DNA from: Sipunculus nudus
Taxonomy: Eukaryota; Annelida; Sipuncula; Golfingiida; Sipunculidae
Length of the DNA stretch: 64,000 bases
Assembly: GCA_026874595.1 (NCBI GenBank)
Contig: CM049320.1
Span: forward strand, 40,070,714 to 40,134,713
Reading direction: 5' to 3'
Every line of letters starts with the position of its first letter. The stretch's first letter is position 1. The position numbers were made by a program, and so were the translations under genes. This document shows, one piece after another, positions 30,182 through 63,450 of this stretch. Below the pieces are notes generated by a model that ran no database searches, had not been told where the DNA came from, and saw only the letters and a program-made list of their open reading frames with translations.

Positions 30182-32460
30182 TTGTGCCACCTACCACAAA
30201 TCCAGAAAGCTGTCCAAGTTGTATACACCTGCAAAATTTTAGGCAGAAAAGTCAAACCACTACATGTATATGAGCGATTTTTGCCCATGGCAGACAAACA
30301 GACAAACACTGTGCAAAAATCTTTGCAGGTAACCCCTCCAGTTTTGTGTATGATAAAGACCTATGTGAGATCTAAACACATGCACAATTTTGGCCCAATC
30401 GGTCAAATGGTTCCTGAGATATGAGCTTGGATGTGTGCAGCGTTAACTAGAATGTAGGTGGCATCTGTCATAAAATCAAGAAAGCTGTCCACGATGTATA
30501 AACCTGCAAAATTTTAGGCAGTTATGTCGAACCACTACAGAGAAATGAGTGATTTTAGGCCACGGCAGACTAACAGACAGACGCTGTGCAAACATTGTTA
30601 CAGGTGGCGCCACCATTTTTTGTGTATGTTACAGAGCTATCAAAGGGCTACATTTGTATAAATTTTATTTCCTGATCGGTCAAACGGTTCCCGAGATATA
30701 AGCTTGGATGTCATCAGCGTGAACGTGAACGTAGGTGGCGCCACCTGTCATAAAATCAAGAAAGCTATCCTGGATGTATACGCATGACGAATTTCAGGTG
30801 AATTAGTCAATTCACTGCAGAGATATGAGTGATTTTAACCCAAGGCAGATGAACAGATGGACACTGTGCAAACATGGTTACAGGTGGCGCCACCATTTTT
30901 TGTGTATGTTATAAAGCAATCCAAGGGCTACATTTGTATCAATTTTATTTCCTGATCGGTCAAACGGTTCCCGAGATATGAGGGTTTATGAGTGGAAATA
31001 GACCCACAAATGGACACTGGACAGAGAGGAAAGGTCAGAGGTCAACGCAAATTGGTTAGGCACCAGTTCACATGTGACCCGATAATAGGTGCAAGTTTGG
31101 GGAAAATCGGTCCATAAGTCTCCGAGGAGCTCTCTGGAAACGAACACCGGCAGAGGAACCCGGTCAAAAACATAATATACGCAAAACTTCGTTTTGGCAG
31201 ATGCAAAAATACAGGTGGCTCCACCAGTCTGCAGAAACTAATAAAAACACTTAATGGTCAATATCCATGCAAAAAATCATGGTGATCTCTGCATTAGTTG
31301 TTCAGATACTTAAGTTTTTGTATCAAATTGTCCATTATTCTGAGGGATACTTCGGAGTCCTATAGCTTGAAGGATATGGGTAACAGAGACCTAATTTCAA
31401 GTTTCCATAGGCACCTTTTATGGGCCTCCTTGCATGACAAGAATGAAGATTCTAGGTCCAGTTGTTGCGATTTGTACCCTGTTGACAGATAACCACATCT
31501 TTAAAGGTCTCAAAAAAAAGAAAAAAATTCGTAAAAATTTGAAAAAAAACTAGAATACGGGTAGTCGACAAGCGGCTATGTGTATCCGCCAAAATCAGAG
31601 AAGGACGGGTGAAGTAAGGCATGGATTGAGTGGCAAGGGGATATAGAGTAACATGTGTTAAATATTAGAATGGATCTCTGCCACATAAACATGATTGTAG
31701 GTGGCGCCACCTGTTATTTGAATGAGAAACTATACAAGATATATACACAAGCATTCTTGTGTATGTTATAAAGCTATCCAAGGGCTACATTTGTGTAAAA
31801 AAATTGTCCTGATTGGTTGAATGAGTCCGGAGATATAAGCATGGATGTCTACAGCGTGAACCTGAATGTAGGTGGCGCCACCTGTCATAAAATCAAGAAA
31901 GCTATGCGGGATGTACAAGCATGCTGAATTTCAGGTAATTTGGTCAAACCACTGCAGAGATATGAGTGATTTCAACCAAAGGTAGACAAACAGATGGACA
32001 CTGTGCAAAAATGGCTGCAGGTGGCGCCACCTTTTGTTGTGTATGTTATAAAGCTATCCCAGGGCTACATTTGTGTAAAATTTTTTTCCGGATCGGTCAA
32101 ACGGTTCCCGAGATATATGGGTTTATGTGTGGAGCATTAACGTGAATGTAGGTGGCGCCACCTGTCATAAAATCGAGAAAGCTATCTAGGATGTATAAGC
32201 ATGCCGAATTTTAGGTGAATTAGTCAAACCAATGCAGAGATATGAGTGATTTTAACCCCAGGCAGATGAACAGATGGACACTGTGCAAACATGGTTGCAG
32301 GTGGCTCCACCTTTTGTTGTGTATGTTATAAAGCTATCCCAGGGCTACATTTGTGTAAAAAATTTTTCCGGATCGGTCAAACGGTTCCAGAGATATAAGG
32401 GTTTATGTGTGGAAACAGACGCACAAACGGACGCTGGGCAGAGACGAAAGGTCAGAGGTC
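30182..32460 (+). repeat. ~281-bp tandem units with paired GGTGGCGCCACC palindromes
   Basis: The palindrome GGTGGCGCCACC, or a one-base variant, occurs at about 30604, 30733, 30885, 31700, 31871, 32022, 32152 and 32302. Spacings of about 130 and 150 bp alternate and sum to ~281 bp. Each unit also has 'gtcataaaatcaagaaagctat', 'gcagagatatgagtgattt', 'gatggacactgtgcaaa', 'gtgtatgttataaagctatcc' and 'cggtcaaacggttcccgagatat'. The unit phase is disturbed around 31000-31650, where a copy of the second family is inserted or recombined. Confidence 0.75.
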
Positions 32461-32562
32461 AAGGTCACTTGGTTAGGCACCAGTTCACATGTGACCCGAT
32501 AATTTGTGTAAGTTTCGGAAAAATCTGTCCAGTAGTCTCAGAGGAGTTCTCCGGAAACGAAC

Positions 32563-32588
32563 GCGGCGGCGGCGGCGGCGGAGGCGGA
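32563..32588. repeat. (GGC)n trinucleotide tract
   Basis: About eight GGC/GGA repeats at the boundary between the two tandem families. They produce a polyglycine or polyproline chance frame. Confidence 0.9.
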
Positions 32589-32639
32589 ACCCGGTCAAAA
32601 ACATAGTATCCGCAAAACTTCGTTTTGGCGGATACAAAT

Positions 32640-34262
32640 AGAGGTGGCACATCCAGTCTGCAGAAACTGATGGAACAGCTCATGATCAATATGTATGCCG
32701 AAAATCATGACCATCAGTGTTGTAGTTATTGAAATACTGCAGTTTTTGTATCAAATTTTCCATTATTCAAGGGGGGGGGGGGGTATTTTGGACCCATACA
32801 GCTTAAAGATATTGGGTAACAGAGACCTAATTTCAAGTTTCCATGGAGACTTTTCATGGGTCTCCCTGTGTGTCAAGAATGGAGATTCTTGGTCCAGTTT
32901 TTATGATTTGTGCCCTGTTAACAGATGTTCATATCTTTAAAGGTCTCAAAAATACCGGAAAATTTCCTAAAAAAAAAACGAACAAATACAGGTGGTGCCA
33001 CCAGTCTGCAGAAACTTATGAAACACTCCATGATCAATATCCATGCAAACAATTATGGTTATCTCTGCATTAGTTGTTCAGATACTTTAGCTTTTGTATC
33101 ATAGTCAAATATTCCATTATTCTGAGCTGTACTTTGGAGTGCCATAGCTCAAAGGATATGGGTAACAGAGACCAAATTTCAGGTTTCCATGGAGACTTAT
33201 CATGGGTCTCCCTGTGTGTCAAGAACGAAGATTCTAGGTCCAGTCGTTACGATTTGTACCCTGTTGACAGATAACTACATCCTTAAAGGTCTCAAAAATG
33301 GAGAAAACAATTCGTGAACATTGAAAAATACAGGTGGCGCCACCAGTCTGCACAAACTGATGAAACATCTCATGATCAATATGTATGTCGTTAATCATGA
33401 CCATCAGTGATGTAGTCAATGAGATATTGAAGTTTTTGTATGAAACTTTTGACTATTCTGGGGGGTAATTTTGGGCCCCATAGCTCGAAGGATATGGGTA
33501 ACAGAGACCTAATTTCTGGTTTCCATGGAGACTTTTCATAGGTCTCTCAGTGTGTCGAAAATGAAGATTCTAGGTGCAGTCGTTACGATTTGTGCCACGC
33601 TAACAGATGACAGCATCCTCAAAGGTCTCAAAAATAGAGGAAAAAATCGTAAAAAATCAAACAGTACAGGTGGCGCCACCAGTCTGCAGGAACTGATAGA
33701 ACATCTCATGATCAATATGTATGCCAAAAATGAAGACCATCAGTGATGTAGTTATTGAGATATTGAAGTTTTTGTATGAAATTTTTTACTATTCTGGGGG
33801 GTACTTTGGGGCCCCATAGCTCGAAGGATATGGGTAACAGAGACCTAATTTCTGGTTTCCAAGGAGATTTTTCATGGACCTCTCAGTGTGTCAAAAATTA
33901 AGATTCTAAGTCCAGTCTTTATGATTTGTGCCTTGTTAACAGATGTTCACATTTTTAAAGGTCTCAAAAATAGAGAAAAAAATTCGTAAAAAATCGAAAA
34001 ATACAGGTGGCGCCACCAGTCTGCAGGAAGTGATGTAACATCTCATGATCAATATGTATGCCAAAAATCATGACCATCAGTCAAGTAGTTAATGAGATAT
34101 TGAAGTTTTTGTATGAAATTTTTGACTTTTCTGGGGGGTACTTTGGGGCCACATAGCTCGAAGGATATGGGTAACAGAGACCTAATTTCTGGTTTCCAAG
34201 GAGATTTTTTATGGACCTCTCAGAATCCCAAGTTACAAGGTTCTAGGTCCAGCGGTTACGAT
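32640..34262 (+). repeat. ~339-bp tandem units with one GGTGGCGCCACC each
   Basis: Unit starts at about 32642, 32990, 33331, 33667 and 34006 (spacings 348, 341, 336 and 339 bp). Each starts with 'aggtggcgccaccagtctgcag', then 'catgatcaatatgtatgcc', 'gagatattgaagtttttgtatgaaa', 'ggggtactttggggccccatagctcgaaggatatgggtaacagagacctaattt', 'tccagtcgttacgatttgtgcc' and 'aaaggtctcaaaaata' (all given in part). The first two units are the most diverged, and the last three are close to each other. Confidence 0.8.
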
Positions 34263-34275
34263 TTGTGCCTGGTTA

Positions 34276-34318
34276 ACGGACGGACAGACGGACAGACGGA
34301 CAGACGGACAGACGGACG
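34276..34318. repeat. (GGACAGAC)n tail
   Basis: Four to five copies of an 8-bp GGACAGAC unit immediately inside the right end of the composite element. Similar GACGACGG runs close the elements at 340-1395 and 12918-13515. Confidence 0.9.
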
Positions 34319-39865: not shown

Positions 39866-40080
39866 CTAACGTCATGTGTTTTAAACATACAGAGATCTGA
39901 TACACCGTCAAATGTTTAAACATCACAGAGGCCAGATACACCGTCATGTGTCATAAACATCACAGAGGCCAGATACACCGTCATGTGTTTTAAACATTAC
40001 AGAGGCCAGATACACCGTCATGTGTTTTAAACATCGCAGAGGTCAGATACACCGTCATGGGTTTTAAATATCACAGAGGC

Positions 40081-42670
40081 CAGATACACCATCATGTGTT
40101 TTAAACATCACAGAGGCCAGATACACCGTCATGTGTTTTAAACATCGCAGAGGCCAGAAACACCGTCATTTGTATTAAACATCACATAGGCTAGATACAC
40201 CGTCATGTGTTTTAAACATCACAGAGGCCAGATACACCGTCAATTGTTTTAAACATCACAGAGGCCAGATACACCGTCATGTGTTTTAAACATTACAGAG
40301 ACCAGATACACCGTCATGTGTTTTAAACATCACAGAGGCGAGATACACCGTCATGTGTTTAAAACATCACAGAAGCCAGATACACCGTCATGTGTTTTAA
40401 ACATTACAGAGGCCAGATACACCGTCATGTGTTTTAAACATCGCAGAGGTCAGATACACCGTCATGGGTTTTAAATATCACAGAGGCCAGATACACCATC
40501 ATGTGTTTTAAACATCACAGAGGCCAGATACACCGTCATGTGTTTTAAACATCGCAGAGGCCAGAAACACCGTCATTTGTATTAAACATCACATAGGCTA
40601 GATACACCGTCATGTGTTTTAAACATCACAGAGGCCAGATACACCGTCAATTGTTTTAAACATCACAGAGGCCAGATACACCGTCATGTGTTTTAAACAT
40701 TACAGAGACCAGATACACCGTCATCTGTTTTAAACATCACAGAGGCCAGATACACTGTCATGTGTTTTAAACATCACAGAAGCCAGATACACCGTCATGT
40801 GTTTTAAACATTACAAAGGCCAGATACACCGTCATGTGTTTTAAACATCACAGAGGCCAGATAGACCGTCATGTGTTTTAAACATCACAGAGGCCAGATA
40901 CACCGTCATGTGTTTTAAACATCACAGAGGCCAGATACACCGTCATGTGTTTTAAACATCACAGAGGCCAGATACACCGTCATGTGTTTTAAACATCACA
41001 AAGGCCAGAAACACCTTCATTTGTATTAAAAATCACATAGGCTAGATACACCGTCATGTGTCATAAACATCACAGAGGCCAGATACACCGTCATGTGTCA
41101 TAAACATCACAGAGGCCAGATACACCGTCATGTGTCATAAACATCACAGAGGCCAGATATACCGTCATGTGTCATAAACATCACAGAGGCCAGATACACC
41201 GTCATGTGTCATAAACATCACAGAGGCCAGATATACCGTCATGTGTTTTAAACATCAGAGAGGCCAGATACACCGTCATGTGTCATTAACATCACAGAGG
41301 CCAGATACACCGTCATGTGTTTTAAACATCACAGAGGCCAGATACACCGTCATGTGTCATAAACATCACAGAAGCCAGATACACCGTCATGTGTCATAAA
41401 CATCACAGAGGCCTGATACACCGTCATGTGTCATAAACATCACAGAGGCCAGATATACCGTCATGTGTTTTAAACATCACAGAGGCCAGATATACCGTCA
41501 TGTGTTTTAAACATCACAGAGGCCAGATACACGGTCATGTGTTTTAAACATCACAAAGGCCAGATAGACCGTCGAGTGTTTTAAACATCACAAAGGCCAG
41601 ATAGACCGTCATGTGTTTTAAACATCACAGAGGCCAGATACACCGTCATGTGTTTTAAACATCACAGAGGCCAGAAACACCGTCATGTGTTTTAAACATC
41701 ACAGAGGCCAGAAACACCGTCATTTGTATAAAAAATCACATAGGCTAGACACACCGTCATGTGTCATAAACATCACAGAGGCCAGATACACCGTCATGTG
41801 TCATAAACATCACAGAGGCCAGATATACCGTCATGTGTCATAAACATCACAGAGACCAGATACACCGTCATGTGTCATAAACATCACAGAGGCCAGATAT
41901 ACCGTCATGTGTTTTAAACATCACAGAGGCCAGATAAACAGTCATGTGTCATTAAAATCACAGAGGCCAGATACACCGTCATGTGTTTTAAACATCACAG
42001 AGGCCAGATACACCGTCATGTGTCATAAACATCACAGAGGCCAGATATACCGTCATGTGTTTTAAACATCACAGAGGCCAGATATACCGTCATGTGTTTT
42101 AAACATCACAGAGGCCAGATACACCGTCATGTGTTTTAAACATCACAGAGGCCAGATACACCGCCATGTGTCATAAACATCACAAAGGCCAGATATACCG
42201 TAGAGTGTTTTAAACATCACAAAGGCCAGATACACTGTCATGTGTTTTAAACATCACAGAGACCAGATACACCGTCATGTGTCATAAACATCACAGAGGC
42301 CAGATACACCGTCATGTGTTTTAAACATCACAGAGGCCAGATACACCGTCATGTGTCATAAACATCACAGAGGCTAGATACACCGTCATGTGTCATAAAC
42401 ATCACAGAGGCCAGATACATCGTCATGTGTCATAAACATCACAGAGGCCAGATATACCGTCATGTGTTTTAAACATCACAGAGGCCAGATATACCGTCAT
42501 GTGTTTTAAACATCACAGAGGCCAGATACACCGTCATGTGTTTCAAACATCACAGAGGCCAGATACACCGTCATGTGTTTTAAACATTACAGAGGCCAGA
42601 TACACCGTCATGTGTTTTAAACATCACAGAGGCCAGATACACCGTCATGTGTTTTAAACATCACAGAAGC
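40081..42670 (+). repeat. Higher-order repeat unit 1 (70 monomers)
   Basis: Every line compared matches the sequence 2,590 bp downstream with only scattered single-base differences, such as CATCTG at 40724 against CATGTG at 43314, and the order of TTTT/TCAT monomer variants is the same. The correspondence fails before about 40080, which sets the left edge. Confidence 0.85.
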
Positions 42671-45250
42671 CAGATACACCATCATGTGTTTTAAACATCA
42701 CAGAGGCCAGATACACCGTCATGTGTTTTAAACATCGCAGAGGCCAGAAACACCGTCATTTGTATTAAACATCACATAGGCTAGATACACCGTCATGTGT
42801 TTTAAACATCACAGAGGCCAGATACACCGTCAATTGTTTTAAACATCACAGAGGCCAGATACACCGTCATGTGTTTTAAACATTACAGAGACCAGATACA
42901 CCGTCATGTGTTTAAAACATCACAGAGGCCAGATACACCGTCATGTGTTTTAAACATCACAGAAGCCAGATACACCGTCATGTGTTTTAAACATTACAGA
43001 GGCCAGATACACCGTCATGTGTTTTAAACATCGCAGAGGTCAGATACACCGTCATGGGTTTTAAATATCACAGAGGCCAGATACACCATCATGTGTTTTA
43101 AACATCACAGAGGCCAGATACACCGTCATGTGTTTTAAACATCGCAGAGGCCAGAAACACCGTCATTTGTATTAAACATCACATAGGCTAGATACACCGT
43201 CATGTGTTTTAAACATCACAGAGGCCAGATACACCGTCAATTGTTTTAAACATCACAGAGGCCAGATACACCGTCATGTGTTTTAAACATTACAGAGACC
43301 AGATACACCGTCATGTGTTTTAAACATCACAGAGGCCAGATACACCGTCATGTGTTTTAAACATCACAGAAGCCAGATACACCGTCATGTGTTTTAAACA
43401 TTACAAAGGCCAGATACACCGTCATGTGTTTTAAACATCACAGAGGCCAGATAGACCGTCATGTGTTTTAAACATCACAGAGGCCAGATACACCGTCATG
43501 TGTTTTAAACATCACAGAGGCCAGATACACCGTCATGTGTTTTAAACATCACAGAGGCCAGATACACCGTCATGTGTTTTAAACATCACAAAGGCCAGAA
43601 ACACCTTCATTTGTATTAAAAATCACATAGGCTAGATACACCGTCATGTGTCATAAACATCACAGAGGCCAGATACACCGTCATGTGTCATAAACATCAC
43701 AGAGGCCAGATACACCGTCATGTGTCATAAACATCACAGAGGCCAGATATACCGTCATGTGTCATAAACATCACAGAGGCCAGATACACCGTCATGTGTC
43801 ATAAACATCACAGAGGCCAGATATACCGTCATGTGTTTTAAACATCAGAGAGGCCAGATACACCGTTATGTGTCATTAACATCACAGAGGCCAGATACAC
43901 CGTCATGTGTTTTAAACATCACAGAGGCCAGATACACCGTCATGTGTTTTAAACATCACAGAAGCCAGATACACCGTCATGTGTCATAAACATCACAGAG
44001 GCCAGATACACCGTCATGTGTCATAAACATCACAGAGGCCAGATATACCGTCATGTGTTTTAAACATCACAGAGGCCAGATATACCGTCATGTGTTTTAA
44101 ACATCACAGAGGCCAGATACACGGTCATGTGTTTTAAACATCACAAAGGCCAGATAGACCGTCGAGTGTTTTAAACATCACAAAGGCCAGATAGACCGTC
44201 ATGTGTTTTAAACATCACAGAGGCCAGATACACCGTCATGTGTTTTAAACATCACAGAGGCCAGAAACACCGTCATGTGTTTTAAACATCACAGAGGCCA
44301 GAAACACCGACATTTGTATAAAAAATCACATAGGCTAGACACACCGTCATGTGTCATAAACATCACAGAGGCCAGATACACCGTCATGTGTCATAAACAT
44401 CACAGAGGCCAGATATACCGTCATGTGTCATAAACATCACAGAGACCAGATACACCGTCATGTGTCATAAACATCACAGAGGCCAGATATACCGTCATGT
44501 GTTTTAAACATCACAGAGGCCAGATAAACAGTCATGTGTCATTAAAATCACAGAGGCCAGATACACCGTCATGTGTTTTAAACATCACAGAGGCCAGATA
44601 CACCGTCATGTGTCATAAACATCACAGAGGCCAGATATACCGTCATGTGTTTTAAACATCACAGAGGCCAGATATACCGTCATGTGTTTTAAACATCACA
44701 GAGGCCAGATACACCGTCATGTGTTTTAAACATCACAGAGGCCAGATACACCGCCATGTGTCATAAACATCACAAAGGCCAGATATACCGTCGAGTGTTT
44801 TAAACATCACAAAGGCCAGATACACTGTCATGTGTTTTAAACATCACAGAGGCCAGATACACCGTCATGTGTCATAAACATCACAGAGGCCAGATACACC
44901 GTCATGTGTTTTAAACATCACAGAGGCCAGATACACCGTCATGTGTCATAAACATCACAGAGGCTAGATACACCGTCATGTGTCATAAACATCACAGAGG
45001 CCAGATACATCGTCATGTGTCATAAACATCACAGAGGCCAGATATACCGTCATGTGTTTTAAACATCACAGAGGCCAGATATACCGTCATGTGTTTTAAA
45101 CATCACAGAGGCCAGATACACCGTCATGTGTTTCAAACATCACAGAGGCCAGATACACCGTCATGTGTTTTAAACATTACAGAGGCCAGATACACCGTCA
45201 TGTGTTTTAAACATCACAGAGGCCAGATACACCGTCATGTGTTTTAAACA
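42671..45250 (+). repeat. Higher-order repeat unit 2 (70 monomers)
   Basis: Second copy of the 70-monomer block. It stays in register to about 45250 and then breaks: AGAAGCCAGATACACCATC in unit 1 becomes AGAGGCCAGATACACCGTC here, and the array ends within two monomers. Confidence 0.85.
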
Positions 45251-45269
45251 TCACAGAGGCCAGATACAC

Positions 45270-45371
45270 CGTCATGTGTTTCAAACATCACAGAGGCAAG
45301 ATACACCGTATCTGACCTCTGTGATGTTTAAAACACATGAAGGTGTATCTGGCCTTTGTGATGTTTAAACT
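45270..45371. repeat. Palindromic terminus of the satellite
   Basis: The last forward monomer runs straight into about 1.6 monomers in reverse orientation (45309-45371). AAACATCACAGAGGCAAGAT on the left faces ATCTGACCTCTGTGATGTTT on the right, with a centre near 45304. The inverted piece ends at TGATGTTTAAAC, after which unique sequence begins. Confidence 0.9.
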
Positions 45372-53186: not shown

Positions 53187-54130
53187 ATTAATACTAAAGC
53201 AAAAACTGGATGCCATTTGTTCAAAGGATTTAATGGGCAGAGAGACAATGCTATGCTTTTAAATTTACACAGATATAAAGCCTGTATAACTGAAAAGAAG
53301 AAAGAAACCTTTGTATAACTGACAAAGCTGGCCTACGGATAAAACATTATTGAATGCGGACCTGTCAAACTTGTCTATTTGTTTTGGCGTTCAGATAGAT
53401 TATAAACATGACTCAGCTTTGGTCTGTCGAGGCAAAAACAGGTGCTTCTTTAATGTGCCCTGACTTTAGCCTAGGTACGTCATACCGTTTTGACGATGTA
53501 TTTTATGAAGCTGACCCAGTTCTCTTAAACGTGAGAGGCCCCTATCCTGACATACAGAAAAAAAAGTAAGGGTTCAATTTTAAACGTTCTGGTTTATGCT
53601 TATACTGTAACATGTTCTTTTGATGTTTAATGGCGTTAAAATGTTCAGAATTGTTACACTCTGTAGAATGAATTACCTCTCTCTGTAAATTATTATTTCT
53701 CATATATGGGGAGATATTTCAATGTAAATGGTTTATGTAATTCCTCTGTAAATAGTATAGGCACCTTTGTTCGCTCGGATATCTCTGAAGCCAGACGGAT
53801 TTTATACCGTTTGCGTGTTTATGAAATGCAGAACATACATGCGTGCAATAAATGAAAAGCCTTTATTTGTAAATGGTTGGACATGGTTTATATATTATAT
53901 ACCAACTACACATGAAAGGATCAATGTATTTTGAAAGTAAAATTCAAATGCCGTAACTCTAAGATACCCAACCCGAGTACGTTTATTATTTGGAACAAAT
54001 AAATGTTTATTAGAAATTCCTAATATTTAGTTAAACGAGGGACATTTCGGAGCCAGGATAAACGATATTTCGGATGAATGTAAGTCGAATATAAAGGATA
54101 TTACAGTAATTGGTTACCAGATTGTTATTG
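53185..54130. other. Upstream flank of the predicted secreted-protein gene
   Basis: No repeat element was recognised. The last ~150 bp would be the promoter region of the gene starting at 54165. No TATA box at a sensible distance is obvious. Confidence 0.4.
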
Positions 54131-54164: not shown

Positions 54165-54201
54165 ATGGGTCTTATTCTGGCCTCTCCTACATCAGTGCTC
54201 G
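54165..54201 (+). CDS. Exon 1 of predicted small secreted protein
   Basis: The exon is 37 nt: an ATG in a strong context (AACATGG, A at -3 and G at +4), then MGLILASPTSVL, then one base of the next codon before a consensus donor CG|GTAAGT at 54202. It ends in phase 1, which is the phase needed to enter exon 2 at 61136. Spliced to exon 2, this segment becomes the first half of a signal peptide; alone it is too short to be noticed as an open frame. It is the 5' member of four collinear phase-1-compatible exons. The protein family is not recognised. The main doubt is that a 6.9 kb intron had to be bridged by signal and phase logic alone. Confidence 0.5.
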
Positions 54202-54833
54202 GTAAGTAACCTTTTTCGTCTGTGTAACCCCCGTACAAAACTTGGTTGAGAATTGTTATTTATTATTTCTTATTTATTATTTCTCTCTTCTCTCCGAGTT
54301 TGAGATAGATCTTTGATTATTCAAAACTTACCTTCTTTCAGAAAAATAATAAAAGTTGACAGATTTCCCCATGATATATATTATTTTTACAAAATTTTAC
54401 CGATATCTACATACCCCTATCATCGCTCAATGGCTTGGACGGGAGACTTCCAGTTGATCGCTCAGCCACTATTGACCTCTAATTCCTATATATTTTCATC
54501 AAATTTCAGCTATTTTTTAAGCTAAGCATGCTATGCAGGTACAGTGCAAGCTCTCACATTCGCCAAGGTTGGAAAATATTGTCGGTGTTTGCCAATTGCG
54601 AATAATTGGAGGTTGATCATTGGATTGATAATGGTAGAATTTCTAATTCTCTTATCACTTTCTATCGTTGTTGAGAATATCTGGAGAAGTTGATTTGATC
54701 TGCGATATGCGAGGTTTGGCAAATGAAAGATGTCAAGCTTTATAAAATAGGCTTTTGGTTGGTGATGCATACATAATTATAAAAAAAAAATATGTTACGG
54801 TGCATTTTTGGATATTAACTATCTTCTATATAT

Positions 54834-54964
54834 AGTAAACCCTCGAAATTACAACCAAACGAGGTCTTATATGAAAAATAAAAACTAAACGGGGCCGTGA
54901 AAATGTTGTCGTTATTTTGAGGTGGGGGGGGGGGGGGGAGCGTCCATTAGGCGAGGGTTTATTG
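54834..54964. mobile_element. Small TAAACCCTCG-ended MITE
   Basis: AGTAAACCCTCGAAATTA at the left faces GGCGAGGGTTTATTG at the right, an imperfect terminal inverted repeat of about 15 bp. The element is about 130 bp and contains a poly-G run (54924-54938). The ends resemble pogo/Tigger-derived MITEs. Non-coding. Confidence 0.6.
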
Positions 54965-55895
54965 TAATTATAAATATCCCACTGAAATCAAACACCGATT
55001 TAAAAATATAATTTTAAAAGATATTGCTGTTCGACTCGATATCGGGAAATATGTCTTAAATGGCGTATGGTTTTCTAATGGTCCCCCGGTTCCTCCTACC
55101 AGTTGCACACCACTAACTCAGGTTTGGAAAATCCCTCTTATTGGTCATTATAACCACTAGTAGTACATCAGCCAGAGGGTTCATCGGTACCAAACAGGTG
55201 ACAATTGCTATCAATGTTTTTTTGAAAGGTGTATGTGTGTAGATAATAAAAATGCCTAATAGCAGTATAAAAGTGGTAGCTTTCTGTAAAATATCAGCCT
55301 GTTTTGAAATGTACTTGCACCAAAATTGCAATTTTGCGAGACACAGTTATATATAAATATTATTTAGTTATAACATCTTATATAGTGCCCGTTTTAAAAC
55401 AGGTTTGATGTCAGTTGATAGTAGACATTTATAGCTTTCATCTGGTGTGTCAGTCATTTATATAGCTTTTCAATTTCTAAAGATATGATTACTTTTCTTC
55501 ACCCTGTATTATGGCAATTTGTATAATTTTAGCTAATTTATTAAAAAAAAGGTGTATTTCTGATAAAACCAACCACGACCAGACCGAACGTGGACTTTAT
55601 TAATAAAGTCTGAAGTCTTTTAGCTGAAAAAAAACATGTCTGGCACCCAACTACAATTTGTGGATTTGGGCGCGGTCACAGAAAGGTGTTATTCCGTTCT
55701 TTAATTAGCCGATACATGTCCCATTGCCACCAACTGTCCCCAGAAAAAAAATAATGCCTGGTTGATGTTTTTGAATACATTTGTGTCGCATACCAGCGCA
55801 CTTATTGAATCCTGATTGGTTAATCCTCCCAATTATTCCACGTGTCTGCTATCGGTGGCCGATGTATAGACTAAAACTCGGATGTCGCAAGCCGA

Positions 55896-56141
55896 ATGTC
55901 ACACATGACATGTATGCAGGCACGGGTACTCGGCTCGTTGTTTGAATATATGTTTTTTGCATGTCTCCGGTTGATAAAAAGAAAAGGGCGACAAGTCATT
56001 ATAAGCAGTATATTTCTATTTGTATGGTTTTGTTATATTGGTGCCTTAGTCACTTGTGATATCGTACAAACTAGGCCGCCTTATCTGCACTTCTGGCCAA
56101 ATTCGCTTTCTTACACGAAATATAAAAGAGCATTTGGCTGA
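55896..56141 (+). CDS. Candidate single-exon membrane microprotein (weak)
   Basis: An open frame of 81 codons, or 63 from an internal ATG at 55950. From the internal start it has a short basic N-terminus (LRLIKRKGRQ), one hydrophobic span (VIISSIFLFVWFCYIGALV) and a polar tail with RPPYLHFWPNSLSYTKYK. That is the shape of a type II single-pass membrane protein, such as the N-terminus of a Golgi enzyme. AATAAA lies at 56164, about 23 bp after the stop. CCAAT-like ATTGGTTAAT lies at about 55815. No family was recognised and no splice donor extends it. It may be chance. Confidence 0.22.
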   Translation: MSHMTCMQARVLGSLFEYMFFACLRLIKRKGRQVIISSIFLFVWFCYIGALVTCDIVQTRPPYLHFWPNSLSYTKYKRAFG

Positions 56142-57524
56142 GAGAGGGCTATGCTGTCTGCTGAAATAAATCCATGTAAATGTTTCCAACAAAATTAACA
56201 TATAAAATCAAGACAAGAGCAGTAAATGTACCTAAAACATTTTGCTTGGGTGGCACCATAAATAAATGATAGATATTGCAGTTTGCCTTTCTGTCAGGAC
56301 TAATTGTGACCCAGAGCTGTAAGTAATTCATTCTGAGTTGCCTATGTTTTATACTGTTAACATTTCTGACAGTTGAGAGATTTCTAAATAAATAATTTTT
56401 CCTATAACGGAAAACAGATGTTTATTTGAATCGTTGGGCAAACAGTGATTTAACGAGAATAAATACCAGTTTGCTATATAGCCAGTAAGTGCAATAACTC
56501 ATCCTATTCCGGTTTTTATGTTTATACAAAGTCCAGTAAATTCTAGTGATAAGCCCAAATTAAAAAGAATCAGTTGTTGAAGTTGAACAAATCTAATTTA
56601 ATTCTAATCTGCTTTGACTCAGGAGTTCAGGGATTATGCTTCAAACTAAACCCTAGCAGTCCAGCGTCAACCAACTTTACCGGATTGGAAGACATACATG
56701 GTTCGCCTTGGGCTATGTACTTGCACCAGAGAGTGCCATAAAGATCATTTTGCTTTAATCTTTAAAATGCAATTTTTCACTGAACGGTCAAAGCAACATG
56801 TGTCCCTGTCATTCCCCAGGTTTGAGGGAGATCATGTTAATCACTGACTGTTGTACTGGCCGAACAATTATAATATCGATGGGGTTTATGGTTTTGCCCT
56901 TAAGAGAATATCATCTCTCGCTTATTAGCTTATAATTGTAACTGTTAGATCACAAATTGAAGATACATATTCTAAAACATATTTGTTTTTATATTATTTT
57001 CTTTTATTTAAACATTTCATTAGAAACACACATGATAATAAACATGAAAGAAACTGATTTTTCATTCTCCTGGTGATTTCTATTTTAATTCCTTGCAAGT
57101 GCTAACTTTCTTATGATTTGATTTGGCAAGGTAGCCAGGCTTGAAAAAACTATAAGATATAATAGACTTTTAAAAGCCCCGGTGATAATCCGAAAAGAAA
57201 AAAGGCGAAATGATTTTAATATTCCACTCGGTGTTATCTTTCCAACCATGCAAAACAGATCTCATCAGATTTGATGTTTTTCTGTCAGGAAGCGATTGCA
57301 TATTTATATGATTATGAACTTATTAACTGCTATTGCTTATTTCCCCTTTAAACTAACATTGAATATTACTTAGTTTTATTATTAGTATTATTTGGATGTT
57401 TAAAATACACAAAGGCCTAGTTGTGAAATAATGTAACAAACAATTCTTTAAAGAGTCTTCTATATCTTAAATACATTATAACCTAATTCCTCTTCTGTTG
57501 ATTTTAAACTTTACCAAGTGCCCC

Positions 57525-58400
57525 GCTGGTCATTATGCTCAGCTGAATCTATATTGGTCAGTGATCTAATTCTTATCGACTAAGGAGAGTTTAAGAGAAC
57601 CTGTATACACAACGTCTGAACATCCCAGGTCTAGCGATTACGAATTGTGCCTTGATATATATCACACTGATAACTGCAGTCTGTCGTTCACAAAAAGAAA
57701 AAAAAAAGTCTTACATTTTGCATTGTTCATAATCGCGAATAATGATGGAACAATAGAGAGTGAAACTAGGAAATACCATTTCAGCTCTAGTCATTTATAA
57801 TCGGTAAGCTACATATAGATTAAATTTTCTTACCATTCAGGAAAAAAATGGAAATGTACAGGTTTTGCTCGCAGAAGATAGTTAAACATAAATGGTGCCA
57901 TCTGTAGTTTATATACTCGTAAAAGTCACATGATCAATGTTTGGTAAAGCACATTACAAATCGTATAGGTAAAATAGAAAATGAAATGCAACAATAAGCA
58001 AATATAAGTTTACGCTATCCCTCACATAAAAGATATCTTTTTTTTATTTCCTGACTTGAGTAGGAAGAACTGAAAAAGATCATTTTGACTCAAGTCAACA
58101 TAAGTGGCGATACTTGCAACTTACACTGACATACCAGTCATGGGATCAATATGCTGGGTATTGGTCAAAACATTATGAATACAAACACTTGTGATTAGCA
58201 AAGTTAAAATAGAGTAGAGACAAATCTTATAATATTTCAGCACACCTCATACTTATTTTGTCATCTTATGATCATCTCCAATGAATAAGCCATGAAATGA
58301 AATGAGTTATATTTTTTTGGCTTGCACAAGTTAGGACAGCCTATAGCTTACAAACAAAATACCATTCCAGTGATCAATATTACCATGGATCTTGGAGATG
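57525..58400 (+). mobile_element. Ancient remnants of the 30-34 kb composite family
   Basis: 'atgctcagctgaatctat', 'aacatcccaggtctagcgattacgaattgtgcctt' (57621-57655), 'aatggtgccatctgtagttt' and 'tcacatgatcaatgttt' (57890-57945) follow the order of blocks in the ~339-bp units, at low identity. A second, fainter repeat follows at 58100-58180. They show that this family predates the well-preserved array. Confidence 0.45.
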
Positions 58401-58491
58401 ACAGTTGCGGCAGTTCCTGATATATTCCGTTACCGACATAACGTTATATATGTTGACGTATTCTATATATGGAGTATTTTTCTTAAGGGTG

Positions 58492-58681
58492 AGACAGAAG
58501 CGGGGGGGGGGGGGGGGGAATCCCCCTCTCCAGTCGCCACAACTTTTTTAAAGGTTTCAGACAAAGTTTTGTGTCCTGGAACCACCCTCCCTTTTTTCGG
58601 ACCTGGGGACCTTTTTTACAACTTTACCATCCGTCCTGGAGTGGACCCCTCCATTTTAAATCCTGGATCTGCCTCTGTGAG
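58492..58681. mobile_element. GGATCCAGG-type MITE, diverged copy
   Basis: It shares with 20879-21100 the ordered blocks 'ggtttcagacaaa' / 'cttcagacgaaa', 'cagacctcaggaccttttttt' / 'ggacctggggacctttttt', 'gtcctggagtggacccct' and 'aaatcctggatctgcc'. A run of about 19 G at 58501-58519 has replaced most of the left end. The polyglycine and proline-rich frame across it is an artefact. Confidence 0.65.
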
Positions 58682-59372
58682 GGTATAAGAAAGTTGAACT
58701 GTAGGTAAACACCTATTGATCATAAATTATACATCATTGAAAAGATTATATTGCTTGATAGAAGTTTGGCATATAAAGTTGTATGAAGTAAATTTATATA
58801 ACCACCCCTTTGTCGTTTTTCCTAGGGGTGAGTGTAACTATAAGAATGTATTACTTAAGCAGTATACACCCAGTGGCCATAAATAGTATGACATACTGAA
58901 GCGTATGGTTTAAGCTATCATTTGAGACCAAATTTGACTGGATACGTTTTGCATATTTGGTAGTATGGGGCTTATAACCACTTTTAAGTTGGTGTCCTTG
59001 AGATGAAAAAAATATATACGTCATCCGACATAAAACATCCATTTATTCACTGAAAGCTACCACTTTCATACTGCTATCAGGCATTTTTATTACCTACACA
59101 TGTATACCTATCAAGCACACATGGTGAAAATTTGTCACCAAAATGGTACCGATGATCCAAATTTTGGGGTCTGGCTGAAGTTATATAGTGGTATACCCAC
59201 AATTTAGACTTGCGACCTGTGACATCTGGGTTTTAGTGTGTACATAAATTGACAGCCCCCATAGGCGGTTTCAAGAAACCTGGGAAAATAAACCTGTCAG
59301 GGTTCGGTAAGGGAGCCACAAAGTAATCCGAGGATAGCACCCGCACTGTTATTCATTCACACTTGTCAATAA

Positions 59373-59670
59373 GGAGATGCCCTGCTAGACTTGGCCAAAT
59401 ATTGTGATACCTGTTCCCGCTGACTGAAAAACCGCGTTTTCACGGCTCACAATCGGACCTCCGGTCACGTGGCTTTGTAATGGTAAACATAAACACGTGG
59501 ACTGCGTTTACCAACACGCAGGACCATAAGAATGTGTTTAATAGTCGTATGTGAGGTACTGAGACTGTGTGCTGGGATGGTTTTGCTGGGAATCTTTTTT
59601 ATAAAGCAAAACTGCACTGAAAGTGTGAAAGAATAGGCCTACGATTACGCCTGATTATGTACCGTTGGTA
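59373..59670 (+). repeat. Dispersed repeat D, copy 1
   Basis: It aligns with 60055-60355: 'ggagatgccctg.ctgactt.gcc', 'ccgcgttttcacggct' / 'tcgcgttttgtggct', 'aatcggacctcc.gt.acg', 'tggtaaacataaacacgtgg' / 'tggtaaacaaacacgtgtt', and 'gtgtgctgggatrgttttgct'. It lacks the outer part that copy 2 has. Confidence 0.7.
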
Positions 59671-59845
59671 ATTTTTTTTTTATTTTGAGTAAAAGTTACT
59701 GCAACTGATTTCTGCTGATAGGCTGTATTGTACTATGGATATATCTTGAAAAACTGCATTACTCATTGGCTGGATCTTGGATACATTTAACATCTACATT
59801 TTTCAATTTTACCACACTGTACAGAGTCAGTGGGTGTTTTTGCAT

Positions 59846-60352
59846 TTTAAAGGGGCCCAGTCACCTATAATGCATGTTGAATTAACACGAAACATAGCTT
59901 CTTCCCTTTAAAATAAATTTGCATCTGCCAAGATATTTCCCTTAAACCGTTTGCTTCCTCCTGTTATTGAGTGTTAAAAACAGTGGACCCGGCGCGATCA
60001 CAGGTGTCAAAATAAATACAGCACGTGCTTTGATCAGGCTACAACGTATCAATCAGGAGATGCCCTGACTGACTTAGCCCAAAAATGTAATACATGTTCT
60101 CGCTTGCTGAAACATCGCGTTTTGTGGCTAAAAATCGGACCTCCTGTTACGCCGCCTTGTTATGGTAAACAAACACGTGTTGACTGTGTTTACTAATACG
60201 AAGACACATGATAAGTTGTTTCACAGCTGTATGCGCGGTACTATGACCGTGTGCTGGGATAGTTTTGCTAGAAAACTTTCGCATAAAGTAAAAATGAACT
60301 GATGGTGTAAAATAAAAGGCATGATACTGTTTCTGATTATACCCCTTTAATG
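59846..60352. mobile_element. TTAAAGGGG-ended element containing repeat D copy 2
   Basis: TTTTAAAGGGGCCCAGTCAC at 59846 and ACCCCTTTAATGGG near 60340-60352 form a short inverted terminus (TTAAAGGGG). The interior includes the second repeat D copy. The length (~507 bp) and lack of coding capacity fit a MITE. Copy 1 would be a truncated relative. Confidence 0.5.
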
Positions 60353-61080
60353 GGTAACATCCCTGATTTATGATGTTAAGAAACAAATAAGATAATAATT
60401 GCATAATTGATAAATTGTGAAATAACCAAAGGAATATCTCGAAATGTAGATCAACACACGTGCTAGAGCGCTGATTTCACACACTTTAGAAATCAGAATT
60501 ACCTCTGATTTAGAATCGGTTATAATTACTTGAGACAGGAGTATTGGAACATACCTTTGAGCAAAACCATGCAGAGATAAGCAAACGACTGCGGTCAAAT
60601 CTTTGACCAATATGCATATTCACAGAATTATCTGACTTCTGTTCATATTCCTAATGTTCAATTCGCTATAAGATGTCGGCACCAAGGGGAGCTCTCATTT
60701 AGCAGACAGGAGAGACAATTCGATCATATCTGACTCTTAAGTTAATACCAGACCCCTTATCAGTTAGGGTTAGATATACAGGTGTCCTAGTTTACAGCGA
60801 AATAACACTTTTTTAACTAGGCCCAAATCCTCAAACTCAAGTAAGATCGCGCAATCCATGTAAAATGAATCAATGAGAGAAAGCAACGTTTTTGTACTTT
60901 TCAGCACCATGTATTGAATCATGAAGAGAAGGGTATGTAAAGAGAGTATGACACGGACAGGATGTTAATATGAACTTATTTATTTTACATGGATTGTACG
61001 AATGGTTATTATAACTAATCGCACTCTCCATGGCTCAGATTGTGGCGTTCTGTAGACTGTATAGGTTGAGTATTGTGTTG
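60353..61080 (+). other. Intron 1 sequence with nothing recognised
   Basis: An imperfect inverted pair around CATGTAAAATGA (60857) and TTTTACATGG (60983) is the only structure. The minus-strand frames at 60147-60610 are unsupported. Confidence 0.4.
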
Positions 61081-61135
61081 AGATTTGCACAATATATTTT
61101 CACCGCAAATTGATATATATTTCCGTCTCCTCAAG

Positions 61136-61342
61136 TGATCCTTGGACTAGGCGTAGTTTGTGAGCAGGGTTCAGACAAATCGTGGGCCAAGTCAACTCAC
61201 CAGAGACCGTTAAAGAAAAGCGACCTGCTTTGCTACAACTACTGCACCAGTGGCAAAGTCGCAGTCAACGTCAAGGTTACAATGGTCCGAAGCTGGGACG
61301 AATACACACACAGTACCCTTACCTTTATCAATGAAAGAAAAG
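61136..61342 (+). CDS. Exon 2 of predicted small secreted protein
   Basis: The exon is 207 nt, bounded by a pyrimidine-rich acceptor (TTCCGTCTCCTCAAG at 61121-61135) and a donor AAAAG|GTAAAG. It is visibly GC-richer than its flanks. The first spliced residues, VILGLGVVC, complete a hydrophobic h-region after exon 1's LILASPTSVL, so the pair forms a textbook signal peptide. The mature part is basic, has a close cysteine pair in LLCYNYCTSG, then an alternating beta-strand-like KVAVNVKVTMVRSW and a WDEYTHSTLTF segment. Enters and leaves in phase 1. The other two frames are also open here for part of the length, so frame choice rests on the signal peptide and phase match. Function unknown; a secreted or extracellular protein is inferred. 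Confidence 0.55.
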
Positions 61343-61904
61343 GTAAAGGAATCTAAGCCTCGATCCTCCATGCTTTTGTGGTATATAATCCCAAAACCGT
61401 GTTTGCATTCACTTATTCCGCCCATGCTCCCAGGTTCATTCGAGCATAAGTGACCCTACTTTTGGGAATAATTCCTGAATCCGGATCTATATATCTCCAT
61501 TGGCCCGTTCCTGAAATGCCCTGGAAATTTCCCATGCCCTCCTGGCGTAATTAATTATTATTTAATGTATTAATTTATATTATAAATAAGCTTCATAGTT
61601 AACAAAATGTGATGTAAAACCCATTAATTTTTATTGAATATTAGCTTAACAAGGGGATTATCAAAAGGTCTTTTAAAGACCACCTTTTTCATGCAGCAAT
61701 TATATGAGAGTAGGGTAGAATTGTGAAAATGGAGGAAAATGCTGAATAATGTTAGGTTCTTGTGGAATGTGTATGGCTTATTAAATGTCTTAAATAAAAG
61801 AAATTGATATAAAGAACTAATTCATTTGTAATGACCTGATATGTTTGACTAACAAGGATGAATCACGTGACAAATCGTCTCCATGGATACCACATATTTT
61901 ACAG
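61343..61904 (+). other. Intron 2 of the predicted gene
   Basis: A 562-bp GT-AG interval. It contains a truncated family A repeat and otherwise AT-rich sequence. Confidence 0.4.
61398..61553 (+). mobile_element. Dispersed repeat family A, copy 7 (truncated)
   Basis: 'aaccgtgtttgcattcacttattccgcccatgctcccaggttcattcgagcataagtgaccctac' (given in part), then 'cattggcccgttcctgaaatgccctgg' and 'gccctcctggcg'. The central CA-rich block is deleted, and it stops before the usual GGAGGCAA end. It lies about 55 bp after exon 2. Confidence 0.7.
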
Positions 61905-62003
61905 GTACAGACTCGGTATCAGACACAAACTTTCTGGAAGAAACAAATTCAGACGAGAAAGCTCAGCAATTAATAAAGAAAAGCTCTGCTGACAATGGAC
62001 GAG
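61905..62003 (+). CDS. Exon 3 of predicted small secreted protein
   Basis: The exon is 99 nt between an acceptor ATATTTTACAG and a donor CGAG|GTATCT, symmetric phase 1-1, so it fits directly after exon 2 and could be skipped without changing frame. It encodes an acidic stretch (TDSVSDTNFLEETNSDE) followed by a basic one (KAQQLIKKSS) and an NGR. This low-complexity charged composition suggests a flexible C-terminal region. If the donor were not used, the frame would continue another 57 codons into hydrophobic, AT-rich, non-coding-looking sequence. Confidence 0.45.
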
Positions 62004-62710
62004 GTATCTTAATCTCTTTTGTATATTCTAAAACAGTAATTAGTTCCTTGTACCTAAACTTAACTGGATGTAAATCAGGCTTTAGTTTCAGTACATATTT
62101 GTATTTGAAAATATCATATTTACCGTTTGAATTAAACATGGTTTTATATATAAGAGCTTTTGGGTTTCTACGGTGAATGATTTTGGATATAGAAAAAGAT
62201 CTCGACATAACATCTCGAGATCTCGACATAATATCTCGAGATCTCGACATAGAATATCGCAAAAAATGTTAGGACACCGAAAAAAAGTAAAAAGAGAATT
62301 TATACTCGAGATAAAATTGCACAGAAAAAGAAATATTTTTGAACCCGTTGGCGTTGTACGGACCATTCAATGCTTAATCTACGTAAGTTAAAAAAACAGT
62401 CTGTCAAATAAACATAAACCTTTGAACCGATCCTACCGGGTACAGGTTGTCCCTTTTGTTAATATTCACGTGTTTATAACATGCGTGGGTGGGGTCGCAA
62501 AAGTGGCCGCCGGTCGTAATCGTAATAGGTTGAGTAAAATGTAATCTGAGATAAAGTTATAGTTATAAATAATAGATAGGATGACTAGAGGTAATCTGAG
62601 CTATAGTTATAAGGACTATTACTCAGATTACCGCATTAATTACTTAAAGCAAAGAATGAATGGTTTAAATAATCTCTATCATCTTTCACCATTGGTTCTC
62701 TTTCTGCAAG
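62004..62710 (+). other. Intron 3 of the predicted gene
   Basis: A 707-bp GT-AG interval holding the CTCGAGAT palindrome cluster. A donor-like CTAC|GTAAGT at 62383 could belong to an unrecognised alternative exon. An internal direct repeat of GGTAATCTGAG-type sequence lies at 62540-62640. Confidence 0.3.
62195..62285 (+). repeat. ATCTCGAGAT palindrome cluster, plus
   Basis: AGATCTCGACATAA(C/T)ATCTCG is repeated about 2.5 times with a 22-bp period, generating nested palindromes (ATCTCGAGAT). It is followed by 'aatatcgcaaaa' and 'ttaggacaccg'. Confidence 0.8.
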
Positions 62711-62730
62711 ATGCTCTGCTTTGGTCTTAA
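62711..62730 (+). CDS. Likely terminal coding exon of predicted small secreted protein
   Basis: An excellent polypyrimidine tract and acceptor (TTGGTTCTCTTTCTGCAAG at 62692-62710) opens an exon that, in phase 1 from exon 3, adds DALLWS and stops at TAA (62728-62730). ATTAAA at 62798-62803 is a plausible polyadenylation signal. With it the four exons total 363 nt, giving a 120-residue precursor. An alternative is the phase-1-compatible open segment at 63175-63270, which would extend the protein beyond this window. The 3' end is the weakest part of the model. Confidence 0.35.
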
Positions 62731-62797
62731 AGCTATTATTCACCTGAATGCCTTATTTATAGAATTTATGTGATTCCGGCTTACTTTTCATATACAT

Positions 62798-62803
62798 ATT
62801 AAA
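62798..62803 (+). terminator. Possible polyadenylation signal (ATTAAA)
   Basis: ATTAAA lies 68 bp after the proposed stop codon at 62730. It is a common variant hexamer. Given the AT content, chance occurrence is likely. Confidence 0.25.
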
Positions 62804-63257: not shown

Positions 63258-63450
63258 ATGCCATCTCGAGGTAATAATATTTCCCGTGATTTTTTTTCTC
63301 GAGATATTGAGTCGAGATATTGACATATTTTCTCGAGATCACGAGATAATCTTTATTTCTGTGTCCTATTGTTTTGCGAGATTGTATCGCGAGATCTCTA
63401 GATATTTTTTTTGAGATCTCAAGATAAAAAAATAATATTCCGTGTCCTAT
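63258..63450 (-). repeat. CTCGAGAT palindrome cluster, minus
   Basis: CTCGAG, TCTCGAGATATTGAGTCGAG, TCTCGAGATCACGAGAT and GCGAGATCTCTAGAT words, with 'gtgtcctattgttttgcgagattg', mirror the cluster at 62195-62285 in reverse complement ('ttaggacaccg' against 'cgtgtcctat'). The two clusters are about 1 kb apart in inverted orientation. Confidence 0.7.

Follow-up and report, generated by a model that had tools for sequence, protein, structure and literature searches.

The stretch of DNA described here (the window) comprises 64,000 nucleotides (nt) of the genome of the sipunculan Sipunculus nudus (assembly GCA_026874595.1, 1.43 Gb; contig CM049320.1, here called C15; C15:40070714-40134713). The next 50 kb downstream were added to it, which results in a 114-kb region. 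Towards its 3' end, the window contains the first exons of a predicted + strand gene that, judging from its sequence, very probably extends over some 24 kb and encodes a secreted protein that carries a C-type lectin-like domain (CTLD). The coding exons of this gene would number four or five, its 5' part being made up of exons 1 and 2 and, possibly, exon 3. A previous inspection of the letters of the window (the sequence-only reading) had proposed a hidden multi-exon gene at this place, with phase-1 junctions and a signal peptide split over exons 1 and 2, and this proposal is supported by the anatomy of exon 1, the codon use of exon 2 and the exons found in front of CTLD paralogs. The features of the locus, on the scale of the window, are as follows:

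54090..54097, + strand: TATA-box-like TATAAAGG, 75 nt 5' of the start codon.
54165..54201, + strand: exon 1, with the start codon and the putative first half of the signal peptide, ending in phase 1; supported by its donor and Kozak context.
61136..61342, + strand: exon 2, with the putative second half of the signal peptide, a basic linker and a CxxxC...AVN head; phase 1 on both sides; supported by codon use and motif.
61905..62003, + strand: exon 3 (uncertain), a charged linker, symmetric (phase 1-1) and skippable in frame.
62711..62803, + strand: fourth exon of the sequence-only reading, rejected (most likely intron) and displaced by the CTLD exons.
74687-74911 (C15:40145400-40145624), + strand, outside the window: first CTLD exon (CTLDa), encoding the N-terminal half of the domain.
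77973-78211 (C15:40148686-40148924), + strand, outside the window: second CTLD exon (CTLDb), encoding the C-terminal half of the domain and the stop codon.

Joined together, the five exons form an open frame of 807 nt that encodes 268 residues, 11 of them cysteines, with every junction in phase 1; the product without exon 3 is also in frame. This open, phase-consistent frame and the CTLD at its end are read directly from the DNA. The same is true of exons 1-3, whose positions, donors, phase-1 joins and single CxxxC are those described in the sequence-only reading. The latter had ended the gene within the window, as a small protein of about 120 residues from no known family; instead, the frame continues beyond it and ends in a CTLD that belongs to a large family. 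The recognisable domain lies ~20 kb away from the 37-nt exon 1 and ~13 kb away from the 207-nt exon 2, and AATAAA occurs 105 and 179 nt 3' of the stop codon.

The CTLD is encoded by two phase-1 exons, which start 12.7 kb 3' of exon 3 and are followed by the stop codon. Four human lectin domains were used to build a profile, which was run on the 3,988 open reading frames (ORFs) of the 114-kb region, i.e., the set used for profile and motif ranking: the top two are + strand ORFs that correspond, in order, to the N- and C-terminal halves of one domain, and the next one has an E-value of 2.5. Pfam searches of the first 30 kb downstream (+ strand) gave three matches with E ≤1, none of them above its cut-off, the best being Lectin_C (E 0.042). 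The spliced product passes the gathering score of Lectin_C (PF00059), with 23.6 bits (cut-off 22.6; E 9.2e-5) over residues 154-258, and the CTLD part matches the PDB entries 6a7s, an N-acetylglucosamine (GlcNAc)-specific lectin (E 1.6e-7), and 2vuv, codakine (E 5.6e-5). The CTLD splice sites (tcctctttttag/CA, TCAG/GTGAGT and attctcag/AT) are in phase 1 and can be joined to exon 3 or, when that exon is left out, to exon 2; the CTLDa donor has a score of 8.6.

Related exons were found in the genome, with 954 candidates for CTLDa and 488 for CTLDb (150 scored in each case, the present gene being counted in each). The genome carries a large, expanded CTLD family, and the gene is most likely a diverged, newly recognised member of it, ordinary rather than orphan. 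On C9, three CTLDb copies (C9:36146971, 36156761 and 36166551; loci L047, L049 and L050; L058) are spaced exactly 9,790 bp and apparently constitute a recent tandem array; in the C9 unit (L058), no CTLDa exon was found, but there are several long open segments that are of a different kind.

Exon 1 has the donor GTAAGT, an A at -3 and a G at +4 of the start codon, and the strong Kozak context attributed to it is confirmed. Splice sites were scored with a generic matrix and ranked against 7,452 GT sites (donors) or 6,447 AG sites (acceptors), which places the donors of exons 1, 2 and 3 in the top 0.4%, 1.3% and 5.1%, respectively. When the 21 kb upstream were scanned for first exons phase-compatible with exon 2 (donor score of at least 1.24), 15 candidates were obtained, among which exon 1 alone combines a donor score of at least 4.7 with both Kozak positions; the candidate at 58398-58488 has a slightly higher donor score (4.85), yet only one Kozak position. 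In two control spans of 21 kb each, this combination was found in none of 24 and none of 22 candidates. The joined N-terminus of exons 1 and 2 has a 10-residue hydrophobic stretch with a mean of 3.19; nevertheless, 14 of the 15 candidates pass the same test, which does not test exon 1, because it is exon 2 that supplies the stretch. The TATA-box-like TATAAAGG, noticed after the fact, occurs three times on the + strand of the window and not at all on the - strand, one of the copies being that located 75 nt before the ATG. Altogether, the anatomy of its sequence makes exon 1 a well supported predicted exon.

Exon 2, which reads CYNYCTSGKVAVN, has the donor GTAAAG, phase 1 on both sides and one CxxxC, within an open frame of 80 codons. 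Its coding signal was assessed by means of a codon model trained on 44 paralog CTLD segments (2,868 codons) and compared with 4,000 frames that have the same length and no stop codon. For the synonymous codon score, exon 2 ranks in the top 0.8%, CTLDb in the top 1.2%, CTLDa in the top 28% and exon 3 in the top 64%; if amino-acid choice is included, the respective values are 5.5% (exon 2), 3.6% (CTLDb), 7.5% (CTLDa) and 12% (exon 3). The period-3 signal is in the top 3.8% for exon 2 and the top 17% for exon 3. Furthermore, there is a local peak of GC content at exon 2. Little could be distinguished with a generic codon model, which placed exon 3 15th of 450 candidates and did not score exon 2 with its true acceptor, as the latter fell below the threshold. 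Upstream of exon 2, inside intron 1, there is a direct duplication of ~275 bp with 76% identity (59366-59638 and 60049-60320).

Searches with the front part of the gene gave the following results: (i) Pfam had no match for exons 1-3, nor in the six frames of 52-64 kb; (ii) a PDB sequence search with exons 2-3 returned three matches, none of them credible (best E 0.43); (iii) Rfam and tRNA scans found nothing; and (iv) a literature search for the encoded peptide yielded only noise. AlphaFold2, applied to exon 2 alone, gave a model with a mean predicted local distance difference test (pLDDT) value of 45.8, which was not used.

The connection of exon 2 with the CTLD comes from the DNA located in front of other members of the family, which was read over 1.5 kb for 29 loci and over 7.7-10 kb for nine loci. 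Short CxxxC exons sit in front of some paralog CTLD exons. In three lineages, these front exons are PAN/Apple-like and have the form CxxxC-x(4-5)-C-x-AVN...C: (i) L027, L030, L031 and L044, which are close copies within one C2 cluster; (ii) L038 (C7); and (iii) L043 (C16). The pattern CxxxC-x(3-8)-AVN is present in only one of the 3,988 ORFs, namely exon 2. In the fetched loci (those from L012 on; translated in six frames, 448,036 residues, with overlap between some loci), it is present only in the front exons of L027, L030, L031, L038, L043 and L044, on the same strand as the CTLD exon and upstream of it. Shuffled exon 2 yields it 17 times in 200,000, or 347 times in 200,000 with the CxxxC fixed, rarity figures that are flattering, since the AVN pattern was defined after seeing exon 2. 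When four paralog front-exon sequences were searched against Pfam, the short version of L043 gave PAN_1 (E 0.086, 13.1 bits, cut-off 21.4) and the longer version of L043, L044 and L042 gave no match. The signal peptide of L042 and that of L062 are apparently split too (by eye), the second half being directly preceded by an acceptor.

In PAN/Apple domains (PF00024), the CxxxC has two partner cysteines further on. Exon 2 resembles these domains in its CxxxC followed by AVN, as in the PAN-like front exons of the CTLD paralogs, but it lacks the third and fourth cysteines and any Pfam match. From motif and position, exon 2 probably encodes the head of a CTLD protein, of a PAN/Apple-like type that has diverged.

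Apart from the late definition of the AVN pattern, several observations weigh against this interpretation of the gene. Regarding exon 2, (i) its acceptor (AAG/T) is weak, being only in the top 33% of AG sites; (ii) when the genome was searched for its paralogs, four candidates were scored, and the best one other than exon 2 has an E-value of 1.05, that is, chance level; (iii) profiles built from paralog front exons miss it (369th of 4,674 and 754th of 5,672); (iv) the front exons of L041/L012, L042/L017, L057, L059 and L062 contain CxxxC without AVN, and the CxxxC of these five paralogs is not independent evidence, because resemblance to exon 2 or among themselves was part of the way in which these front exons were identified; and (v) no front exon was recognised upstream of L058 and L060. 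When the phase of the intron that follows CTLDa was crudely checked in 29 paralogs, 19 showed no donor, six were in phase 0 and four in phase 1, so that phase conservation among paralogs is not proven. Exon 3, for its part, has undistinguished codon use and, hence, no codon support.

The domain itself also departs from expectation. Calcium-dependent sugar-binding C-type lectins have EPN or QPD plus WND, and the CTLD has four core cysteines. In an alignment with three human lectin domains, GAE and WNP stand where EPN/QPD and WND are expected, which differentiates the present CTLD from codakine and 6a7s in spite of the sequence match. As judged by eye, the CTLD keeps the first and last core cysteines, has RNY instead of EDC at the second and shows a shift of the third, and one core cysteine appears to be absent. 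In consequence, calcium-dependent sugar binding is not predicted, and the product is classed as a CTLD protein and not as a canonical lectin.

Exon 3 (99 nt) is the weakest of the retained exons. It has a fair donor (GTATCT) and a good acceptor (top 3.6% of AG sites). It must be considered uncertain because, besides the above-mentioned lack of codon support, the interval from exon 2 to the CTLD holds 18 symmetric exon candidates, 5 of which (counting exon 3 itself) equal or exceed the score of exon 3; in four control spans, there are 6-10 symmetric candidates each, 1-4 of them as good as exon 3. The suggestion that this symmetric exon might be alternatively spliced holds arithmetically, in that it can be skipped in frame, but it concerns the least secure exon of the model. 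Another symmetric phase-1 candidate, EDVEENAFVDMERQEPSRQQYLDMNRTTS, is located outside the window at 71782-71871 (C15:40142495-40142584); it looks similar to a tyrosine-motif receptor tail.

Nothing singles out the fourth exon of the sequence-only reading, at 62711: within 2 kb, there are 30 candidates for a phase-1 terminal exon, this one included, and a poly(A) signal accompanies 19 of the 30. Its acceptor (AAG) is in the top 31% of AG sites and its score (-0.99) is just above the admission threshold of -1. It has been abandoned in favour of the CTLD exons. Of the three acceptors of the sequence-only reading, that of exon 3 is good, while those of exons 2 (also AAG) and 4 are no better than many AG sites. 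This rejected exon is flanked by TCGAGAT/ATCTCGA-rich, partly self-complementary repeats (62197-62251 and ~63280-63420, the second by eye).

Three alternative explanations must be considered. According to the first one, which we regard as unlikely, there would be two genes: the CTLD would have its own signal-peptide exon after exon 3, and exons 1-3 would belong to a gene of their own, for a small secreted orphan protein, as in the sequence-only reading. The ease with which short terminal exons that have a poly(A) signal turn up after exon 3 (19 of 30) agrees with this, as do the lack of a significant profile match between exon 2 and the paralog front exons and the statement of a review (PMC12842671) that most of the bivalve C-type lectins (CTLs) covered are single-domain, with or without a signal peptide. 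Against it, CxxxC...AVN is found in the fetched loci only in exons ahead of CTLDs and, besides, the phases of the front and CTLD exons match directly. Furthermore, when the interval between exon 3 and the CTLD was scanned for single phase-1 first exons of ≤150 nt, none of the 12 candidates gave a hydrophobic stretch (mean of at least 2.0) at the N-terminus, and none of the 12 combined a donor score of at least 4.7 with both Kozak positions; a first exon of the CTLD longer than 150 nt, or a split one, would still be compatible with this result.

Somewhat less likely still, exons 1-3 might not be exons at all, the genic part then being only the downstream CTLD. Phase-compatible pieces are certainly common (15 first, 18 symmetric middle and 30 terminal exons), and the 80-codon frame of exon 2 is not rare in a window with 237 ORFs of at least 60 amino acids; chance, however, does not easily account for an exon 1 whose combination of donor and Kozak context is missing from both control spans, nor for an exon 2 with such codon use and period-3 signal, a local GC peak and a shared motif. 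Finally, the idea that exon 2 begins an NTR/C345C (netrin-like) module (PF01759), which came from a likeness by eye to the NTR starts of netrin-1 and C3, can practically be dismissed, since Pfam gave no match and a profile of four NTR domains ranked exon 2 only 131st among 2,000 shuffles and the other window ORFs of at least 40 amino acids.

Elsewhere in the window, there is a 5.4-kb tandem array of ~147 copies of a 37-bp unit with 92% matches (39870-45309), and three more tandem arrays, with units of ~280, 280 and 336 bp, are located at 30198-34277.

Returning to a single gene encoding a CTLD protein, we infer its splicing, secretion, oligomerisation and ligand binding as follows. Exon 1 and the start of exon 2 would provide a signal peptide by which the protein would be exported. 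Exon 2 would then contribute a short CxxxC head, probably a diverged PAN/Apple-like exon without the later cysteines, whose Cys45 and Cys49 may link subunits into oligomers. Exon 3, if used, would act as a charged linker. The last two exons would supply the CTLD and the stop codon, and the CTLD may bind its ligand without the usual calcium site. By analogy with reported bivalve CTLDs, the probable role would be that of a recognition protein in mucosal immunity. A more specific proposal, which we put forward only tentatively and consider rather doubtful, is that a PAN/Apple-derived head lost both disulfide partners of its CxxxC and became an interchain disulfide clasp, i.e., a new route to oligomerisation evolved by this CTLD family, with the symmetric exon 3 as a linker whose optional use would switch the distance from the head to the CTLD.

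Expanded CTLD repertoires, with lineage-specific members and bivalve-only architectures of uncharacterised proteins, have been described in bivalves by Saco et al. (2023; PMC10140915), where one bivalve CTLD subfamily is reported to be expressed mainly in mussel gills and digestive gland. PMC12842671 describes bivalve CTLs as mostly single-domain, some of them with atypical sugar-site motifs, and names EPN/QPD. The present gene is similar to the bivalve CTLs and CTLD-containing proteins of PMC10140915 in that it encodes a single CTLD and belongs to a hugely expanded family. It differs from them in adding a head exon with degenerate cysteines and a possible linker exon: the accessible part of PMC10140915 names no such head, and PAN appears there only in a reference. 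When the literature was searched for PAN/Apple combined with C-type lectins in bivalves, nothing relevant stood among the papers listed.

The front exons of fast-diverging genes can be overlooked or misread as orphan genes. If the head of the present protein is not a decayed PAN/Apple exon, the gene would be one more among the many CTLD genes of this genome. If it is, one and the same genome would hold heads from fuller to degenerate, which would be useful for the study of how a cysteine framework is lost.

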